Shown here one piece after another: positions 1 through 43,189 of a DNA stretch of 64,000 nt. Within the stretch, counting starts at the first letter, position 1; each line of letters begins with the position of its first letter. The notes under the pieces were generated by a model that searched no databases, was not told the origin of the DNA, and was given only the letters and a program-made list of their open reading frames with translations. Origin of the DNA: Phytohabitans maris (GTDB lineage Bacteria > Actinomycetota > Actinomycetes > Mycobacteriales > Micromonosporaceae); NCBI RefSeq assembly GCF_031085175.1, contig NZ_JAVHUY010000046.1, positions 1 through 64,000 on the forward strand, in the 5' to 3' direction. Both the position numbers and the translations under genes were made by a program.

Positions 1-1032
1 CAGATCGCCGAGGTGCTGGCGAACTGGACGGGTATCCCGGTGTACAAGTTGACCGAGGAGGAGACGTCCCGGCTGTTGCGGATGGAGGACGAGCTGCACA
101 AGCGGGTCGTCGGCCAGGAGGATGCGGTCAAGGCGGTGTCGAAGGCGATCCGGCGTACACGGGCTGGGTTGAAGGATCCGAAGCGGCCGTCGGGTTCGTT
201 CATCTTCGCTGGTCCGTCGGGGGTGGGTAAGACCGAGTTGTCCAAGGCTCTGGCGGAGTTCTTGTTCGGCAGCGAGGATGCGTTGATCCAGTTGGACATG
301 TCGGAGTTCCACGATCGGTACACGGTGTCGCGTCTGGTTGGTGCCCCGCCCGGGTATGTCGGCTATGACGAGGGTGGTCAGTTGACCGAGAAGGTGCGGC
401 GGCGGCCGTTCTCGGTGGTGTTGTTCGACGAGATCGAGAAGGCGCACCCGGATGTGTTCAACACCCTGCTTCAGATCTTGGAGGATGGGCGGTTGACGGA
501 TGGTCAGGGGCGGATCGTCGACTTCAAGAACACGGTGATCATCTTGACGACGAACTTGGGTACTCGGGATGTAGCCAAGGCGGTCAGTTTGGGGTTCCAG
601 GCGTCGGAGGACTCGGAGTCGAACTACGAGCGGATGAAGCAGAAGGTCAACGATGAGTTGAAGCAGCATTTCCGGCCGGAGTTCTTGAACCGGATCGATG
701 ACACGATCGTGTTCCATCAGTTGCAGCAGGCGGAGATCTTGGAGATCGTGGATATCATGATCGCTCGGATCGAGACGCAGTTGCGGAACAAGGACATGTC
801 GATGGAGTTGACCGACAGTGCCAAGCGGTATCTGGCGGTGAAGGGGTTCGATCCGGTGTTGGGTGCGCGGCCGTTGCGTCGTACGATCCAGCGGGATATC
901 GAGGACAACCTGTCCGAGCGGATCCTGTTCAACGAGCTCAAGCCGGGTCAGATCGTCGTGGTCGACTGCGAAGGCGACCCCGCCGACGGCCCGGGACTGG
1001 TCTTCCACGTCACGACCGCCACGGCTGGCTGA
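1..1032 (+). CDS. clpC: ATP-dependent Clp protease ATP-binding subunit ClpC, 3' part
   Basis: This is the C-terminal 343 residues of a Clp/Hsp100 unfoldase, cut by the window edge; the frame is open from base 1. It holds the second AAA+ module: Walker A GPSGVGKT, Walker B VVLFDEIEKAH, the substrate-loop motif GAPPGYVGYDEGG, and the C-terminal small domain with FRPEFLNRIDD and the GARPLRR sensor-2 region. In actinobacteria ClpC feeds unfolded substrates to ClpP1P2 in the cytoplasm, and the protein is essential in mycobacteria. The first AAA+ module and the N domain lie outside the window. Only the 5' truncation is artificial; the C-terminus looks complete. Confidence 0.95.
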   Translation, partial: QIAEVLANWTGIPVYKLTEEETSRLLRMEDELHKRVVGQEDAVKAVSKAIRRTRAGLKDPKRPSGSFIFAGPSGVGKTELSKALAEFLFGSEDALIQLDMSEFHDRYTVSRLVGAPPGYVGYDEGGQLTEKVRRRPFSVVLFDEIEKAHPDVFNTLLQILEDGRLTDGQGRIVDFKNTVIILTTNLGTRDVAKAVSLGFQASEDSESNYERMKQKVNDELKQHFRPEFLNRIDDTIVFHQLQQAEILEIVDIMIARIETQLRNKDMSMELTDSAKRYLAVKGFDPVLGARPLRRTIQRDIEDNLSERILFNELKPGQIVVVDCEGDPADGPGLVFHVTTATAG

Positions 1033-1180: not shown

Positions 1181-3415
1181 GTGCGTAAACTCGCTCCTGT
1201 GTCCGAAAGCGAGGATGTCGTCGCGGTGGTGTTGACCGCGTTGGACGAGGAGTATGACGCGGTCCGCGCGCACCTTATAGATCTGCGGGAGCAGCGCCAT
1301 TCGATGGGGACAATCTTCGAGGTCGGTGTTCTGCCGGGCCGGCAGGTCCGAGTCGCGTTGGCGTTGACGGGGCAGGGCAACACCGTCGCGGCTGCCCTCG
1401 CGGAGCGGGCCTTGGCCATGTTCAAGCCGAAGGCATTACTCTTTGTGGGGATCGCGGGCGCGCTCCGCGACGGCTTGAGGCTTGGCGACGTGGTGGTCGC
1501 AACGCGCGTGTATGCCTATCACGGCGGGCGGTGGGAGCCAGAAGGGTTTCGTGCCCGTCCGCGCGTTTTCGAGGCGCCGCATGAGCTGGAGCAGATCGCC
1601 CGGAGCGTTGCGCGGACCTTTCGCCGAGAAGGGTGGGGACGCACTCTGGACGCGGGGGCGCCTCGCATCCTTTTCGCACCGATCGCGGCTGGCGAGGTAG
1701 TGCTGAATTCCCGCACGTCACCGTTGCGCGAGCAGATAAATCGACATTACAACGACGCTGCCGCAATCGAGATGGAAAGTGCTGGCGCCGCCCACGCCGC
1801 GCATCTCAACCAGGCGCTGGCGATGGTGGTTCGGGGTATCAGCGATCTCGCCGACGGCGACAAGGACTGGGCCGACGTCACTGCGTGGCGCAATATCGCA
1901 TGCGAAAACGCGGCGCAGGTCGCCATGGCGTTGATCGGTGCGTTGCCTGAAGCACCGCCGGCGAGGCCGGGCCTGGTGGAGCGTCTTGGCCAGCGGCTGC
2001 TGGGCGCCTCCGTGGGGAGTATGGGCCGGAGGACCGCGGTGATCGGACCGATGCTGGCCATAGTGTTGCTCGCGGTCACTGTGCCGGTGGCGTGGCAGCT
2101 CACGCGTCCGGGCCATGGCGGCGCGGGCGTGCTTCGCGGACAGATCATCGTGAGCGGGTTGGTCGTCGCCCGCAGCGACCAGGGTGGACGCGACGATCGG
2201 CGGTCATACTCCGCTGTGGCCTACGCGCACGTCGTGGGCGTCGCCCCTGTCGCGTTGCCGGCCACCGGAGTGGAGCGGCTCGAGGATGCGTTCCTCGCGG
2301 GTAATGCAACCCGATCCGGTGGCCAGGTGGTGCTCAGCCTCCGTAGGGAAGTGCAGGAAACGGCATTCCGAGAACTGTCACAGAGCAGGAACCCGGCCGG
2401 CCGAGGTGCCGTGGTCGTGTTGGATCCAGCCACTGGCGCGGTCTTGGCGAGCGTGTCAACACCGGCCTTCGACCCGAACGAACTCGTCGCATCGGACCCG
2501 AGCTCGGCCCGGGCCGCATACGAAAAAGCTAGCAACGACTGGACACAACCGCTACTCAACCGCGCGATCTCGCAGGCCTATCCGCCTGGATCGATCTTTA
2601 TGGTGGTCATGGCGGCCGCGGCGTTGCAGAACGGCGGGACGACTTCGGAGCAAATGATCCGCGGCGGCGACCACTACCAACCTCCAGGCGTCACCGTGGC
2701 CGTTAGAAACGCACCGAACGTCGTATGCCCGGATGCCATTACGCTCAAACAGGCGTTTACGGTCTCCTGCAACACCGCCTTCTCGCGGCTGGGGGTCGAA
2801 AGAACCGGCAGCGCCGGAATCGAGAGCACGGCGCGCGCCTTCGGTTTCGCGACCGTCCCTACATTCGACCGGGACGAGGCCAATGCCATGGCCGTTGGCG
2901 CCAGCGACACCGGAGCGATGACCACTGCTGCCGGACAGCCGGACGTCAACGCGGTCGCCAACGCCAGTATCGGGCTGGCCAACGTCAGGATGACCCCGCT
3001 GCAAGGTGCCCTGCTGGCCGCGACGATCGCCAACAAGGGACGTCAGATGCGTCCCTACTTGGTCGACAGGCTGGTGAACGCGGACGGCACAATCGCCTAC
3101 AACGCCCATCCCAGCGTCCTTCGCGAGCCGCTCACACCGCAGACCGCGGACGTGTTGAGCGACATGATGTACAACGTCGTCGACAACGGGACCGGCCAGA
3201 ACGCGCGGGTTGACGGGATCAGGGTTGCCGGAAAGACGGGTACCGCCCAAGCTGGCGCCGGTCGTAACACCCACGGATGGTTCATTGGGTTCGCCGTCAA
3301 GAACGGCAAACCGATCGCGGCGTTGGCCGTGTTCCTCGAACAAGCCGGCGCGGGCGGAGCCGGTGATGCCACCCGCATCGGCGGGGCAATCCTCGCTGCG
3401 GCCGCGGGTACGTGA
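1181..3415 (+). CDS. Nucleosidase-transmembrane-penicillin-binding-like fusion protein with altered SxxK motif
   Basis: This is a 744-residue fusion. Residues 10-260 match the MTA/SAH nucleosidase (PNP/UDP phosphorylase) fold, with the counterparts of the E. coli MTAN catalytic residues present: E24 in ALDEEYD, E199 in IEMES and D222 in GISDLAD. A hydrophobic segment at about 285-308 follows. The rest resembles the actinobacterial class B penicillin-binding protein PbpA: a short pedestal region, then a transpeptidase domain. There SCN (529-531) and KTG (685-687) are present, but the SxxK motif reads S471-I-F-M474, so the general-base lysine is lost. The nucleosidase should face the cytoplasm and the PBP domain the outside. 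The likely role is sensing at the wall with an intracellular effector (inference). The start may be GTG 1181 or GTG 1199; neither has a good ribosome site. clpC upstream is probably unrelated. Confidence 0.8.
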   Translation: MRKLAPVSESEDVVAVVLTALDEEYDAVRAHLIDLREQRHSMGTIFEVGVLPGRQVRVALALTGQGNTVAAALAERALAMFKPKALLFVGIAGALRDGLRLGDVVVATRVYAYHGGRWEPEGFRARPRVFEAPHELEQIARSVARTFRREGWGRTLDAGAPRILFAPIAAGEVVLNSRTSPLREQINRHYNDAAAIEMESAGAAHAAHLNQALAMVVRGISDLADGDKDWADVTAWRNIACENAAQVAMALIGALPEAPPARPGLVERLGQRLLGASVGSMGRRTAVIGPMLAIVLLAVTVPVAWQLTRPGHGGAGVLRGQIIVSGLVVARSDQGGRDDRRSYSAVAYAHVVGVAPVALPATGVERLEDAFLAGNATRSGGQVVLSLRREVQETAFRELSQSRNPAGRGAVVVLDPATGAVLASVSTPAFDPNELVASDPSSARAAYEKASNDWTQPLLNRAISQAYPPGSIFMVVMAAAALQNGGTTSEQMIRGGDHYQPPGVTVAVRNAPNVVCPDAITLKQAFTVSCNTAFSRLGVERTGSAGIESTARAFGFATVPTFDRDEANAMAVGASDTGAMTTAAGQPDVNAVANASIGLANVRMTPLQGALLAATIANKGRQMRPYLVDRLVNADGTIAYNAHPSVLREPLTPQTADVLSDMMYNVVDNGTGQNARVDGIRVAGKTGTAQAGAGRNTHGWFIGFAVKNGKPIAALAVFLEQAGAGGAGDATRIGGAILAAAAGT

Positions 3416-3427
3416 GGTGATCTGCTG

Positions 3428-4086
3428 TTATTTGATCGACGCGGGTCCGCCGGGCGTCGGGGCGAGGAACGTACGCGCGCCGCGCAGCGATGTGGTCAGT
3501 CTCGCCTGGGTCCTGGCGCAGTCGAGGCGTACGTCGAGCGGGCCGGCGACACCGCTGCCGGCGCGCCGGCCGGCGGGTAAGGCGCTCGCGTCGAGGCCGT
3601 CCCGGCGCGCGATGAGCACGCCCAGTTCGTAGCGGCTGACCGCGTCGGCGCCGGCGACGTGGTGGATGCCGGAGTACGACGAGCCGGCCAGCTCCAGCAG
3701 TGCGGCGGCCAGGTCCGTGACGTGGACCGGGCAGCGCACGTCGTCGGTGAAGAGGGCACCGGCGGTGGCGCCCGAGGCGAGCGCGTGCACCAGCTTCTCG
3801 TGGGGCGAGCGGCCGCCGCCGCGGCGGCGACGTGCATGGCGCCGTCCGCGGTGGTCGTCCAGTCGCTCTGCCGGTACGCGGCGTTGACCACCACGGCGGG
3901 TCGGATCTGCTCTACCAGCGCGGCGACGCCTTGGCGGTTTCGGACGTCCAGCATCCGCCAGTCCACATCGGAGAGTGGCAGCGGGCGGCTGTGGAACGTC
4001 GCCACGACCCGCTGGCCCGCGACCCGCGCCTGGCGGGTGACCTCCTGGCCGAGAAGGCCGCTGCCGCCCACTACGAGAACAACCAT
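3428..4086 (-). pseudogene. RmlD-like NAD(P)-dependent sugar reductase, disrupted by internal deletion
   Basis: The N-terminal part, read from ATG 4086, shows the Rossmann motif VVGGSGLLGQEV and continues through VVNAAYRQSDW to a run of alanines. The C-terminal part (SxxHxLVHALASGATAGALFTDD) is read in a different frame from about 3815 to 3428. In dTDP-4-dehydrorhamnose reductase-like proteins about 80 residues, including the YxxxK active site, lie between these parts, and here they are missing. The join falls in a GCG-rich stretch at about 3810-3820. The product is therefore broken and cannot be catalytic. It converges on the fusion gene, with only 12 bases between the stops. Confidence 0.8.
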
Positions 4087-4182
4087 CCGGCTACCGTAGG
4101 CGCCTGAGCCCCCTTGCCGTTCGACGCGGGCGGCACGGCACGGCGACTGTCGTGTCGAACCGATGCCCGATAGGTTGCCCAC

Positions 4183-40309: not shown

Positions 40310-40945
40310 CTACGCCGCCCGCGCGCCGCCGCCGACCGCTTCGATCGGAAAATCGAAATAGGTGTCCGGGTACGGCTCGTCTTTCAGCGTGTAGTGCCAC
40401 CACTCGCGATCGTACCGCCGGAAGCCGCAGGCCTCCATGATGGAGCAGAGGTGTCGACGGTTTCGCGCTTCGGCTTCCGCGATCCCCCTCGCTCCGTGAT
40501 GGGAGATCGAGTCCATCAGGTCGTGGTCACCGCCCATGGGCGCGAGCTCACCGGTGGCCAGGTGATAGAGCGTCAAGTCGACCGTGCTGCCCCGACTGTG
40601 GCCCGACTTGGCGGCCACATATCCTTTCTCGAACATCTCGGCTCGGTCGATATTCGGATAGTGCCGTCGCTTCGTCCGGCCGTCCTCCGGCTGTCTCGAC
40701 CAGCGCAGAAAGCAGTCGACGGCACGTTGCGGGCGATAGCCGTCCCACACGAGCAGACCAAAGCCGAGGGACTCGGCCTTTTCGCACGCCTTTTCCAGGG
40801 CCGCGCACAAAGCCCTCGTGGCGACGATCCGGTTGGCCAGGTATCCGGTCACCGGCTTGCCGGTGAAGTTGTCCCAGGTGGCATACTTGGCATCCCAACG
40901 GATGCCGGGCACCACCTCGTCTACGAAGACAAAGCCGTCCTTCAT
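40310..40945 (-). CDS. vanX: D-Ala-D-Ala dipeptidase VanX
   Basis: The 211-residue protein has the VanX signature SGHSRGSTVDLTLY (zinc-binding His and Asp), the catalytic glutamate and third zinc histidine in REWWHYTL, and WDGYRPQRAVDCF with the active-site arginine. It hydrolyses D-Ala-D-Ala so that the VanA ligase product replaces it in peptidoglycan, giving glycopeptide resistance. The start overlaps the vanA stop as ATGA. It is the last gene of the operon. No signal peptide is present, as expected for a cytoplasmic enzyme. Confidence 0.93.
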   Translation of the reverse strand: MKDGFVFVDEVVPGIRWDAKYATWDNFTGKPVTGYLANRIVATRALCAALEKACEKAESLGFGLLVWDGYRPQRAVDCFLRWSRQPEDGRTKRRHYPNIDRAEMFEKGYVAAKSGHSRGSTVDLTLYHLATGELAPMGGDHDLMDSISHHGARGIAEAEARNRRHLCSIMEACGFRRYDREWWHYTLKDEPYPDTYFDFPIEAVGGGARAA

Positions 40946-41982
40946 AGAGGTTTTCCTGTCAGCGTCAACGACACCACCCGGTCGATCACGTCGGAGAGCG
41001 TCAAGCCCGCAGCCGCCATCATCCTCGGATAGCGGCTGTACGAGGTCATGCCGGGGAACGTGTTGACCTCGTTGAGGACCACCGTTCCGTCCTCCTTGAG
41101 AAACATGTCCACCCGCGACAGTCCCCGGCACCCCAGAGCCCGATATATGGCCTTGGCCGTATCCTGGACGAGCGAGCGTGACTCTGCCGAGATGTCCGCG
41201 GGAACGATCGGGGTCGAGTTTTCCGAACCGCTTTCGGGCTGGCTCTCCTGATGGATGCGGAAAAATCCGTGGGACAGCGCGATCCGGTCGACCTCGCCGG
41301 CGATCAGGTCCAGATCGTTGCCCAAGATGGCACATCCGACCTCGCTGCCGACGACAGCCTCCTCGATCAACACCTTCGAGTCGTACTGCCGGGCGGTTTC
41401 CACCGCGGCCGGCAGCTCCTCTCCGCGAGACACCTTGCTGACGCCGAAGGACGAACCCGAACGCGCCGGCTTCACGAAGACGGGATAGGTGAGCTGGGCG
41501 GGATCGATGTTTTCGTTCGCCGTGACGATCCAGAAGTTCGGTGTGGCGATTCCCGCGCTTCTGGCGACGACGTAGGCGAGAGACTTGTCCATGCACAGGG
41601 CGGAACTCTGGACGTCGCAGCCCGCGTACGGGATGCCGGAGAGCTCCAGCAAGCCCTGCATCGCGCCGTCTTCGCCGAGCTTGCCGTGCAGGACCGGCAG
41701 CACCAGGTCCAGACTGATCGTCTCGTACTTACCGTGGTCCAGGACCAGCAGTCCGCGTACGCCTCTGTCCGGCGACAGCACAGCCGGGCGGCCACCGCCG
41801 TCTTCCCAGTTCACGCCGGGGCCGTCGCAGAGCCTCCAGGCGCCGCCCTTGGTAATCCCGATGTAGAACGGCTCGTACCTTTCGACATCGAGATGCCTGG
41901 CGACCTCTTGCGCGGATTTGACGGAGACAGGATGTTCCTCGGAACAGCCCCCGAACAGAATCCCGATTTTCAACCTATCCAT
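40942..41982 (-). CDS. vanA: D-alanine-D-lactate ligase, VanA/VanB type
   Basis: The 346-residue ATP-grasp ligase shows LKIGILFGGCSEEHPVSVKSA at the N-terminus and VFVKPARSGSSFGVSKV. The omega-loop residues are typical of D-lactate ligases (KYETISLDLVLPVLHGKLGEDG), and the metal-binding end is FLKEDGTVVLNEVNTFPGMTSYSRYP. Van ligases couple D-Ala to D-lactate. It overlaps vanX by four bases and follows vanH by eight. The order vanH-vanA-vanX equals the core of both enterococcal and actinomycete glycopeptide-resistance operons. Confidence 0.93.
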   Translation of the reverse strand: MDRLKIGILFGGCSEEHPVSVKSAQEVARHLDVERYEPFYIGITKGGAWRLCDGPGVNWEDGGGRPAVLSPDRGVRGLLVLDHGKYETISLDLVLPVLHGKLGEDGAMQGLLELSGIPYAGCDVQSSALCMDKSLAYVVARSAGIATPNFWIVTANENIDPAQLTYPVFVKPARSGSSFGVSKVSRGEELPAAVETARQYDSKVLIEEAVVGSEVGCAILGNDLDLIAGEVDRIALSHGFFRIHQESQPESGSENSTPIVPADISAESRSLVQDTAKAIYRALGCRGLSRVDMFLKEDGTVVLNEVNTFPGMTSYSRYPRMMAAAGLTLSDVIDRVVSLTLTGKPL

Positions 41983-41990
41983 GCTGCTAC

Positions 41991-42938
41991 CTACCTGCCT
42001 TCAAATCTCAGGCAATTGATGATGGAGTTTTCGACGGCGTCGCTCAGTGCGTGGTCCGTGTAGTAGGCGGTGTGCGGGCTGATGAGCACGTTCGGCAGGC
42101 TCTGCAACCGCAGCAGCGCCTCGCTCTCGACGGGCTTGTTTCTGCGGTCGGCGTAGAATATTCCTTCCTCCCCTTCGAGGACGTCCAGCGCCGCTCCGCC
42201 CAGCCTGCCGCTTTCCAAGGCCGAGATGAGGGCCTCGGTATCGATAAGTGAGCCGCGTCCGGTGTTGACGAGAAAGGCACCGTGCTTCATCCGTTCGATA
42301 CGTCGACGGCTGAGGAGATGGTGCGTATCCGCGTTGAGTGGCGTATGGAGCGTCACGATGTCGCTACGCCGTAGCAGTTCGTCGAGCTGAACGTAGTCGG
42401 CCGAGGTCTTGGGACGGTTGTCACAGGCCAGTATTCGGCAGCCGAAACCCCGCAGCCGGTCCATGACGGCGGCACCGATGCGTCCCGTGCCGACGACCCC
42501 GACGGTCAGGTCGCGCAGTTCTTTCCCGCGTACCTCGTTCAGCCTGTAGTCATGGACTTCCACCCGGCGGATCATGTGCTTCGCGTTTCGCACCGCCATG
42601 AGCATCAGCATCAGCGTGTAGTCGGCCACGCTGTCGGGTGAATAGGCGACATTTTCGACGGAGATGCCGACGCTCTCGGCATACCGCAGGTCGATGTGGT
42701 TGTATCCGATGCTTCTCGTGGAGATGTACGCCACTCCGGCTCGGCTGAGCGCGAGAAGTGTGGACGTCGTGACCTGGGTTTTGTGACCGACGCTGATGCA
42801 GCGGTTTCCGGACACCAGTTCGACGTTTGCCTCAGATACCGCCGCCTCGGTGATGGTCGGGATTACCCCGAAGCGGGGCCCCATCTCTCGAAACAAGACG
42901 GCCTCGTCCTGCCCGCATCCATAAATCGTGATGCCCAT
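41991..42938 (-). CDS. vanH: D-lactate dehydrogenase VanH
   Basis: The 315-residue NAD-dependent 2-hydroxyacid dehydrogenase begins GITIYGCGQDEAVLF, closely like enterococcal VanH. It carries the nucleotide-binding VGVVGTGRIGAAVMDRLRGFG, the catalytic arginine region STRSIGYNHIDLR and the catalytic histidine in LISPHTAYYT. It reduces pyruvate to D-lactate for the VanA ligase. I chose ATG 42938 because homology starts there. ATG 43019 would add 27 serine- and arginine-rich residues and has a GGAG very close to it. vanR and vanS are not nearby. Confidence 0.9.
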   Translation of the reverse strand: MGITIYGCGQDEAVLFREMGPRFGVIPTITEAAVSEANVELVSGNRCISVGHKTQVTTSTLLALSRAGVAYISTRSIGYNHIDLRYAESVGISVENVAYSPDSVADYTLMLMLMAVRNAKHMIRRVEVHDYRLNEVRGKELRDLTVGVVGTGRIGAAVMDRLRGFGCRILACDNRPKTSADYVQLDELLRRSDIVTLHTPLNADTHHLLSRRRIERMKHGAFLVNTGRGSLIDTEALISALESGRLGGAALDVLEGEEGIFYADRRNKPVESEALLRLQSLPNVLISPHTAYYTDHALSDAVENSIINCLRFEGR

Positions 42939-43065
42939 GGTCGCGACGGTCGAGGAGGACGCGGACGCCAGCGATCGGCTGCGACGGGCCGCTGTACGCA
43001 CTGGTTCCCTGTAGGACATTTCTCCAGTCAAGGGAATGGGATGTTGCCAGCACGTATCCGGTTTT

Positions 43066-43084
43066 CGATATGCCGACGATATGC
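43066..43084 (-). promoter_or_regulatory. 11-base direct repeats in the vanH upstream region
   Basis: CGATATGC occurs at 43066-43073 and again at 43077-43084, exactly 11 bases apart, followed by the palindrome TACCGGCCGGTA. Direct repeats at one helical turn are how OmpR/PhoB-type response regulators, including VanR, bind. The site lies 128 bases upstream of ATG 42938. Whether it is a VanR site is inference. Confidence 0.4.
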
Positions 43085-43189
43085 TACCGGCCGGTAAGCT
43101 GTGGTTTGTTATGCCCACTCTCCCGGCAGCGGCCGGCGAGCGACAACGGCCCCGGGTAGATTCCACGGTCGGACGGAAGCGGAGACGGC

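Follow-up and report, generated by a model that had tools for sequence, protein, structure and literature searches.

To our knowledge, bacterial immune-like nucleosidases are mainly known in combination with intracellular sensors. Effectors of the Detocs type convert ATP to adenine and ribose triphosphate, and the ATP nucleosidase of Detocs itself, reportedly described by Rousset et al. in 2023, is said to be a PNP-family enzyme that serves as an abortive immune effector. The protein presented here has a PNP-family enzyme like Detocs, but it carries a pseudo-penicillin-binding protein (pseudo-PBP) as putative receptor in the same chain. PNP-family (PNPase/MTAN) effectors of bacterial conflict systems are also in print (PMC7159879, 2020; PMC8195603, 2021), and in the consulted parts of both papers they are assigned to hosts of multicellular habit and in some systems are found with membrane or wall-facing parts. 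Like our protein they combine a nucleosidase-fold effector with a modular and variable protein architecture. The partners given in the same parts of the two papers are VMAP, GAP1-type, TRADD-N and caspase parts, whereas the partner here is a pseudo-PBP, and the word 'penicillin' does not occur in the main text of either paper. The closest functional likeness is BlaR1/MecR1, with a penicillin-recognising fold outside, a membrane pass and an enzyme inside; BlaR1 senses by acylation (PMC9834060). BlaR1 activates a metalloprotease, whereas the fusion protein has a nucleosidase, one predicted helix and a PbpA-type fold in which the SxxK lysine is absent. BlaR1/MecR1 are marked by a sensor that beta-lactams acylate through an SxxK box and by a cytoplasmic-facing metalloprotease. 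In the fusion protein the lysine of this box is absent, the N-terminal part is a nucleosidase, and no peptidase of this type was among the four Pfam families detected at E ≤ 1. Compared with actinobacterial PbpA, the protein has lost the lysine, has diverged in the helix and juxtamembrane part, is encoded in another neighbourhood and has a nucleosidase attached. A further comparison is provided by the two-gene NrtR-MTAN units, which have the same nucleosidase family. These mostly carry an amyloid-like motif with a helical tail and an adjacent NUDIX-NrtR gene, whereas the fusion shows no such tail on reading and no NrtR neighbour in the window.

The first-pass annotation knew of no described system with this architecture. 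For the exact fusion this stood: it had no second copy in the genomes searched, and we recognised no description of a nucleosidase-PBP fusion in the open-access papers searched (most subscription papers lie outside this scope). In the consulted part of PMC12419801 penicillin-binding proteins are named in the reference list only. The general type was already known, PNP-family effectors of conflict systems being in print in the parts of PMC7159879 and PMC8195603 consulted. Within this scope the exact fusion is new, with the dead PBP as a putative sensor of a new kind.

The fusion gene was studied in a window of 64,000 nucleotides (the whole stretch of DNA analysed) from Phytohabitans maris. It translates without a single stop codon in 744 codons, and its coordinates, reading frame and domain calls were given correctly in the first pass. 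Table 1 lists the features of the gene together with the C-terminal parts found in relatives of its nucleosidase.

Table 1. Features of the fusion gene, its upstream neighbour and C-terminal parts of nucleosidase relatives (residues refer to the fusion protein)
Feature	Position in window	Strand	Basis or remark
3' end of second ClpC (ClpC2) gene	1..1032	+	148 bp upstream of fusion gene
MTAN-TM-pseudoPBP fusion gene	1181..3415	+	744 aa, GTG as predicted start
Nucleosidase domain PNP_UDP_1, residues 16-252	1226..1936	+	Pfam, E 9.8e-33; presumably cytoplasmic side
E24, catalytic Glu (E. coli MTAN E12)	1250..1252	+	alignment with solved MTANs
E199, catalytic Glu	1775..1777	+	alignment with solved MTANs
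D222, catalytic Asp (E. coli D197)	1844..1846	+	alignment with solved MTANs
Single transmembrane helix, residues 284-308	2030..2104	+	Kyte-Doolittle 2.43
PbpA dimerisation/pedestal segment PBP_dimer_2, residues 319-385	2135..2335	+	Pfam, E 2.5e-8
Transpeptidase-fold domain, residues 409-738	2405..3394	+	Pfam (Transpeptidase), E 1.8e-51; presumably extracytoplasmic side
SIFM replacing STFK (SxxK box), residues 471-474	2591..2602	+	lysine lost
SCN (SxN box), residues 529-531	2765..2773	+	kept; PbpA alignment
KTG box, residues 685-687	3233..3241	+	kept, conserved G683 = A; PbpA alignment
L065, C-terminal part NB-ARC with TPR			Pfam
L067, C-terminal part NB-ARC			Pfam
L088, C-terminal part AAA_16			Pfam
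L104, C-terminal part NACHT			Pfam
L078, C-terminal part Lipoprotein_Ltp			Pfam
L102, C-terminal part Peripla_BP_6 after membrane helix			Pfam

The N-terminal half scored 113.9 bits against PNP_UDP_1 (PF01048; gathering score 25.1), and E24, E199 and D222 pair in the alignment with E, E and D of the solved MTANs, the two features that mark members of the PNP/MTAN superfamily. The E. coli residue numbers E12 and D197 were taken from the titles of structures 1z5n and 1z5o; for E199 the counterpart is, we presume, E174 of the E. coli enzyme. Each of the three residues is invariant in all 69 aligned rows, which correspond to 63 of 63 distinct relatives, and the first-pass reading of a kept catalytic trio was borne out. 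An AlphaFold (AF2) model of residues 1-270, built from an alignment of 52 rows, reached a pLDDT of 92.0 and a pTM of 0.89. The first Foldseek match of this model was the V. cholerae MTAN 3dp9 (E 2.5e-21), and the 50 matches listed were all to MTA/SAH nucleosidases or to futalosine hydrolase, a related enzyme. Judged from the sequence, the enzyme class of this half is clear and the nucleosidase is apparently intact.

Matches to the nucleosidase at E ≤ 1e-30 were patchy within the Micromonosporaceae (96 of 354 genomes, the own genome included), and the identity of the fusion nucleosidase to the relatives retrieved was 40-60%. For ten representatives of these relatives we obtained Pfam calls. Several gave the C-terminal parts listed in Table 1, and for L215, L153, L182 and L069 PNP_UDP_1 was the only call above the cut-off. 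We then used a census of 113 distinct relatives (120 loci minus 7 duplicates, fusion gene excluded), a non-random sample with the best 80 of 453 relatives, in which a helix followed by an ectodomain of at least 80 aa occurred in four of the 113 (L102, L153, L182 and L215). The motif-tail classes in this census were defined by our own loose patterns, the 'amyloid-like' one being modelled on BASS/RHIM motifs. For the linker of the fusion protein (residues 226-318) a QAG-type motif was not seen by reading, yet the loose pattern matches four letters there and hence does not discriminate. The consulted part of PMC7889193 contains neither 'phosphorylase' nor 'PNP' and does not name nucleosidases.

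In the tree of the nucleosidase domain the fusion is placed among types with a receptor built in, within nested groups of 12 (support 0.54), 20 (0.59) and 30 members (0.91). As the inner supports are low, its exact neighbour is left open. Among the 19 other members of the 20-member group 14 are of the NTPase, ELHLxP, Ltp or helix types. The helix with ectodomain requires five Fitch changes for five tips on this tree, which corresponds either to five gains or to about four gains with a single loss. Matches to the nucleosidase were also found in 10 plasmid records, in one phage record (32%) and in seven IMG/VR loci (24-43%). In one of these plasmids, from Nostoc, a nucleosidase-SAVED protein adjoins a CBASS cyclase, with a match restricted to query residues 17-181 at 34% identity. 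Ltp is associated with superinfection exclusion. Members of the mosaic actinobacterial MTAN family combine a closely related nucleosidase with a C-terminal partner that varies, and the fusion protein shows this combination. By its sequence the fusion nucleosidase thus belongs to an actinobacterial family with swappable C-terminal parts, several of them receptor-like. The finding that one and the same nucleosidase module occurs with NB-ARC or NACHT ATPases, with Ltp repeats, with an amyloid-like motif or with a helix and ectodomain is new here. Since the C-terminal slot varies among the relatives, the dead PBP occupies an apparent receptor slot.

Many of the relatives are encoded beside an NrtR-type regulator, with NUDIX and NrtR_WHD domains in the neighbour gene (Pfam, two examples). 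NrtR is an ADP-ribose-responsive repressor. In the same census with the best 80 of 453 relatives, an NrtR gene was located at most 600 bp away in 77 of 88 motif-tailed relatives, in three of four helix types, in three of seven others and in 0 of 14 NTPase/ELHLxP/Ltp types (motif-tailed relatives versus the latter 14: Fisher 7e-11, kinship uncorrected). The 18 control loci, a small and hand-picked set that includes stretches of the own genome, had no NrtR gene. For the fusion itself no match at E ≤ 1e-8 was obtained, neither in the 64-kb window nor in 5.3 kb at the end of contig C76 (L119), which is probably the preceding piece. There seem to be two modes for this nucleosidase, an NrtR-paired form that is mostly motif-tailed and self-contained forms whose receptor is part of the same chain, and the fusion gene looks like the latter. 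It is not simply like the helix types, because three of these four have the NrtR neighbour which the fusion lacks. Most helix types with their NrtR gene fit a strict two-mode split poorly.

We modelled the nucleosidase half and the PBP half apart and with separate alignments. The helix was predicted by AF2 at residues 289-305 with low pLDDT. Around the helix there are four K/R per side in 30 residues, so that neither orientation is favoured. With these charges equal, the orientation was taken from homology alone, which would place the nucleosidase in the cytoplasm and the PBP half outside. The latter has the transpeptidase and PbpA dimerisation domains, the SxN and KTG motifs and, in its AF2 model, a preserved PBP fold, all of which are features of a PbpA-type class B PBP; the SxxK lysine of this class is missing. 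In the SxxK column K was found in 30 of 30 aligned PbpA sequences and M in the fusion protein, in agreement with the first-pass reading of SIFM for STFK with SCN and KTG kept. The lysine is not the lone change of this half, as T472I, S595A, Q599L and G683A were lost alongside it. The half departs from 25 of 145 near-invariant columns, whereas each PbpA departs from 0-15 of 151-158 (leave-one-out). The KTG stretch is similar to a Walker motif. An acylation route as in BlaR1 is unlikely because the lysine is lost, and we set aside a beta-lactam receptor of this kind for the same reason.

The host genome has an ordinary pbpA on contig C11, with STFK present and 45% identity to the PBP half of the fusion. 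Its neighbours, named by reading, are a RodA-like protein, a phosphatase and two kinases. As the genome has this ordinary pbpA of its own, the fusion gene is an extra. The usual pbpA neighbourhood of RodA-like, phosphatase and kinase genes is absent beside the fusion gene, which is surrounded by ClpC2, an RmlD-like fragment, a glyoxalase and a CitMHS transporter. The ClpC2 copy probably continues into contig C76; we infer this from gene order, since contigs C10 and C57 together look like the canonical ClpC place. Second ClpC copies in two other genomes (G002 and G003) adjoin a gene reading as adenosine deaminase instead, and relatives of the downstream CitMHS gene in G001-G005 are located away from ClpC. 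An operon with ClpC2 was considered and not retained, with the 148-bp spacing as its one support. No clear defence neighbourhood or partner gene was seen near the fusion gene. The PADLOC match was dropped as defence evidence because it is unspecific: the two models involved are also matched by L004 and L005 (as delimited by us), which are MTAN-like, more distant and encoded in this genome as well.

We consider it reasonably probable that the fusion is a one-protein transmembrane receptor-effector of the conflict-system type with a new kind of sensor. A nucleosidase module of the mosaic family carries a helix and a pseudo-PbpA in its apparent receptor or assembly slot. The pseudo-PbpA could hold a cell-wall signal outside without turning it over, candidates being a stem peptide, lipid II, a non-covalently held beta-lactam or a protein that attacks PbpA. 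A shape change or clustering might then be relayed via the helix and switch on the nucleosidase, which would release the adenine of a nucleoside or nucleotide in the cell, with growth stop or cell death as the outcome. Fusion in one chain is by itself no proof of signalling. The idea of a sensor-effector had been raised in the first pass; it gains from the relatives with varied receptor-like C-terminal parts, four of them with a helix and ectodomain, and loses its beta-lactam sensing by acylation, which is less likely with the lysine lost. A more specific form of the receptor-effector reading, which we put forward tentatively and hold to be rather less than even in probability, is an integrated decoy: the dead copy of PbpA, the elongation transpeptidase, would be displayed outside as bait, an attacker of PbpA or of its substrate would bind it and fire the cytoplasmic nucleosidase, and the protein would be one instance of a broader class of receptors whose helix-linked ectodomains are built on one nucleosidase module. 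Possible attackers are a beta-lactam, a bacteriocin, phage lysis or a wall-synthesis inhibitor. If the receptor-effector reading is true, bacteria also put immune-like nucleosidases under wall-facing receptors and reuse a dead cell-wall enzyme as sensor. Cell-wall surveillance and self-poisoning would be joined in one protein, with a testable link from wall damage to abortive defence, and the wider nucleosidase-helix-ectodomain receptor set (L102, L153, L182 and L215) would have ligands open to search.

The alternative that survives best, though we regard it as unlikely, is a recent orphan chimaera in which a nucleosidase gene was joined to a pbpA-like gene, with a product without selected role or with the gene decaying. 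We searched several genome sets, all of which are samples and which overlap. A relative of the whole protein was found neither in a single-sequence contig scan, which detects close relatives only, nor in a set of 151 genomes from relatives with the own genome included. Searching 354 genomes of the family by the nucleosidase alone gave no second fusion; the C-terminal parts were read for the retrieved matches, and the remaining frames (at most 538 aa) are too short for a fusion. Among the matches listed from 397 genomes of the order and from 396 genomes of the phylum there was no second fusion either, and 0 of 28 matched plasmid records covered at least 80% of the whole protein. Seven candidates per genome were scored in the sets of 151 and 354 genomes and two in the sets of the order and the phylum; with two a full fusion would rank top, and a split or diverged fusion could escape. 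The joint search for both domains in actinobacterial genomes that had been suggested in the first pass thus gave no second fusion in the sampled sets. Within the sets searched the nucleosidase-PBP fusion is an orphan of one genome, as the chimaera would predict. The lack of a second copy in these sets also weighs against the receptor-effector reading, for which no partner gene or defence island gives support, and the function of the fusion is an inference.

Further evidence for a chimaera is found in the PBP half. Its branch is the longest in the PBP tree (0.881 versus 0.469 for the next), although the midpoint root falls beside it. In the transpeptidase core 98 of 112 conserved columns are retained (0.88), compared to 0.93-1.00 in working PbpA, and retention is below theirs in every conservation class. 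Such reduced retention relative to working PbpA is also expected under decay. The GC3 of the fusion gene (0.76-0.78) is below that of several long neighbours (0.86-0.96), but other ORFs of the window are equally low. Against the chimaera stand the 744 codons without stop or frameshift and the retention of all three catalytic residues of the nucleosidase. The same 98 retained core columns also count against it, and losses are heaviest in variable columns, a pattern seen in working PbpA as well. Free drift to such a depth would be expected to leave about 10 stops by rough arithmetic with assumed rates.

A still less probable alternative is a localisation device, in which the dead PBP does no sensing and only anchors a nucleosidase that serves metabolism (MTA/SAH recycling) at the wall-synthesis machinery. 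Class B PBPs usually contact their SEDS partner through the helix and juxtamembrane part. In the fusion this is the least conserved region, with four of 13 conserved columns retained (19 of 23 in residues 319-408), which argues against such tethering. The nucleosidase is far below the housekeeping MTA/SAH nucleosidase cut-offs (NF004079: 88.4 bits for a cut-off of 169; TIGR01704: 47 bits for 73.8), and its relatives have NB-ARC, NACHT or Ltp parts attached, both unfavourable to a metabolic role. In favour of the device are the predicted PBP fold, which is preserved, and the fact that dead class B PBPs can stay structural: according to the consulted part of PMC5656894, B. subtilis PBP 2B S309A supports division.

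That the PBP half is still active or acylated by beta-lactams by means of an unusual general base is very improbable, given the lysine in every one of the aligned PbpA sequences and the further conserved residues lost in the fusion. Equally hard to credit is an assembly or sequencing artefact that joined two genes. The assembly is a draft of 95 contigs, a second example was not found, and about 200 bp before the fusion gene the contig ends in a repeat, the first 987 bp being identical to three other contig ends. The repeat is restricted to bases 1-987, and the fusion gene is internal to the contig (C41). Against an artefact, the PBP half differs from the ordinary pbpA of the genome, with its lysine and its 45% identity, and four relatives share the nucleosidase-helix-ectodomain layout. 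The coding signal, moreover, is in frame through the junction. In the codon log-odds frame 0 is the clear leader across residues 211-330, and therefore a sign of a frameshift near position 2000, where the first-pass annotation had asked for a check on a sequencing error, is absent. Over the whole gene frame 0 ranked top in 22 of 23 segments, each 60 codons long, the sole exception being codons 91-150, where another frame led by 0.2.

An NrtR-type gene, encoding NUDIX and winged-helix domains according to Pfam in two examples, lies within 600 bp of the nucleosidase gene in 77 of the 88 motif-tailed relatives, i.e. those assigned by loose patterns an amyloid-like motif after the nucleosidase (census including the best 80 of 453 relatives). 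The NrtR-type gene and the nucleosidase-family gene thus often form a two-gene unit, and we recognised no account of it in the literature searched. Besides the fusion gene, which joins nucleosidase, membrane helix and pseudo-PbpA, we found four further nucleosidase-helix-ectodomain proteins among the 113 distinct relatives.

Coordinates of the features (window or individual relative locus)
Feature	Position	Strand	Remark
Two-gene unit with NrtR-type gene	L065-L104, L138-L217		frequent in the family; examples L182:4128-6419, L137:4308-6221
Nucleosidase-helix-ectodomain protein	L102:4974-6911		Peripla_BP_6 receptor domain
Nucleosidase-helix-ectodomain protein	L153:4995-6383		
Nucleosidase-helix-ectodomain protein	L182:4974-6419		
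Nucleosidase-helix-ectodomain protein	L215:4965-6398		
RmlD-like sugar reductase	window 3428-4099	-	adjoins fusion gene; apparently split over two frames
Putative vanX, vanA, vanH	window 40310-43166	-	vanA: Pfam D-ala D-ala ligase; vanX, vanH by reading only

Other relatives carry different C-terminal parts. In L078 the nucleosidase is joined to Ltp-like lipoprotein repeats (Pfam PF07553, E 6.5e-49, three stretches), and the same combination was assigned to L072 by sequence pattern; Ltp is a phage superinfection-exclusion protein. In L098, L099, L100 and L103 the nucleosidase is followed by a short tail of the form GGSHGAVAG/E-I-GGVHN; its pattern is amyloid-like, but the helical tail is absent. 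On a Nostoc plasmid (L136, NZ_CP026684.1) a CBASS oligonucleotide cyclase gene directly follows that of a nucleosidase-SAVED protein.

The putative van genes, ∼37 kb from the fusion gene, probably constitute a glycopeptide-resistance cluster, judging by their sequences.

An exact 987-bp repeat common to two ClpC genes breaks the assembly at window 1-987; the repeat also lies at the ends of contigs C10, C57 and C76 of the same genome (G000). In two genomes of relatives the two ClpC copies are 99.5% alike over 2526 bp (G003) and 98.3% alike over 2499 bp (G002), a likeness that points to recent duplication or gene conversion.
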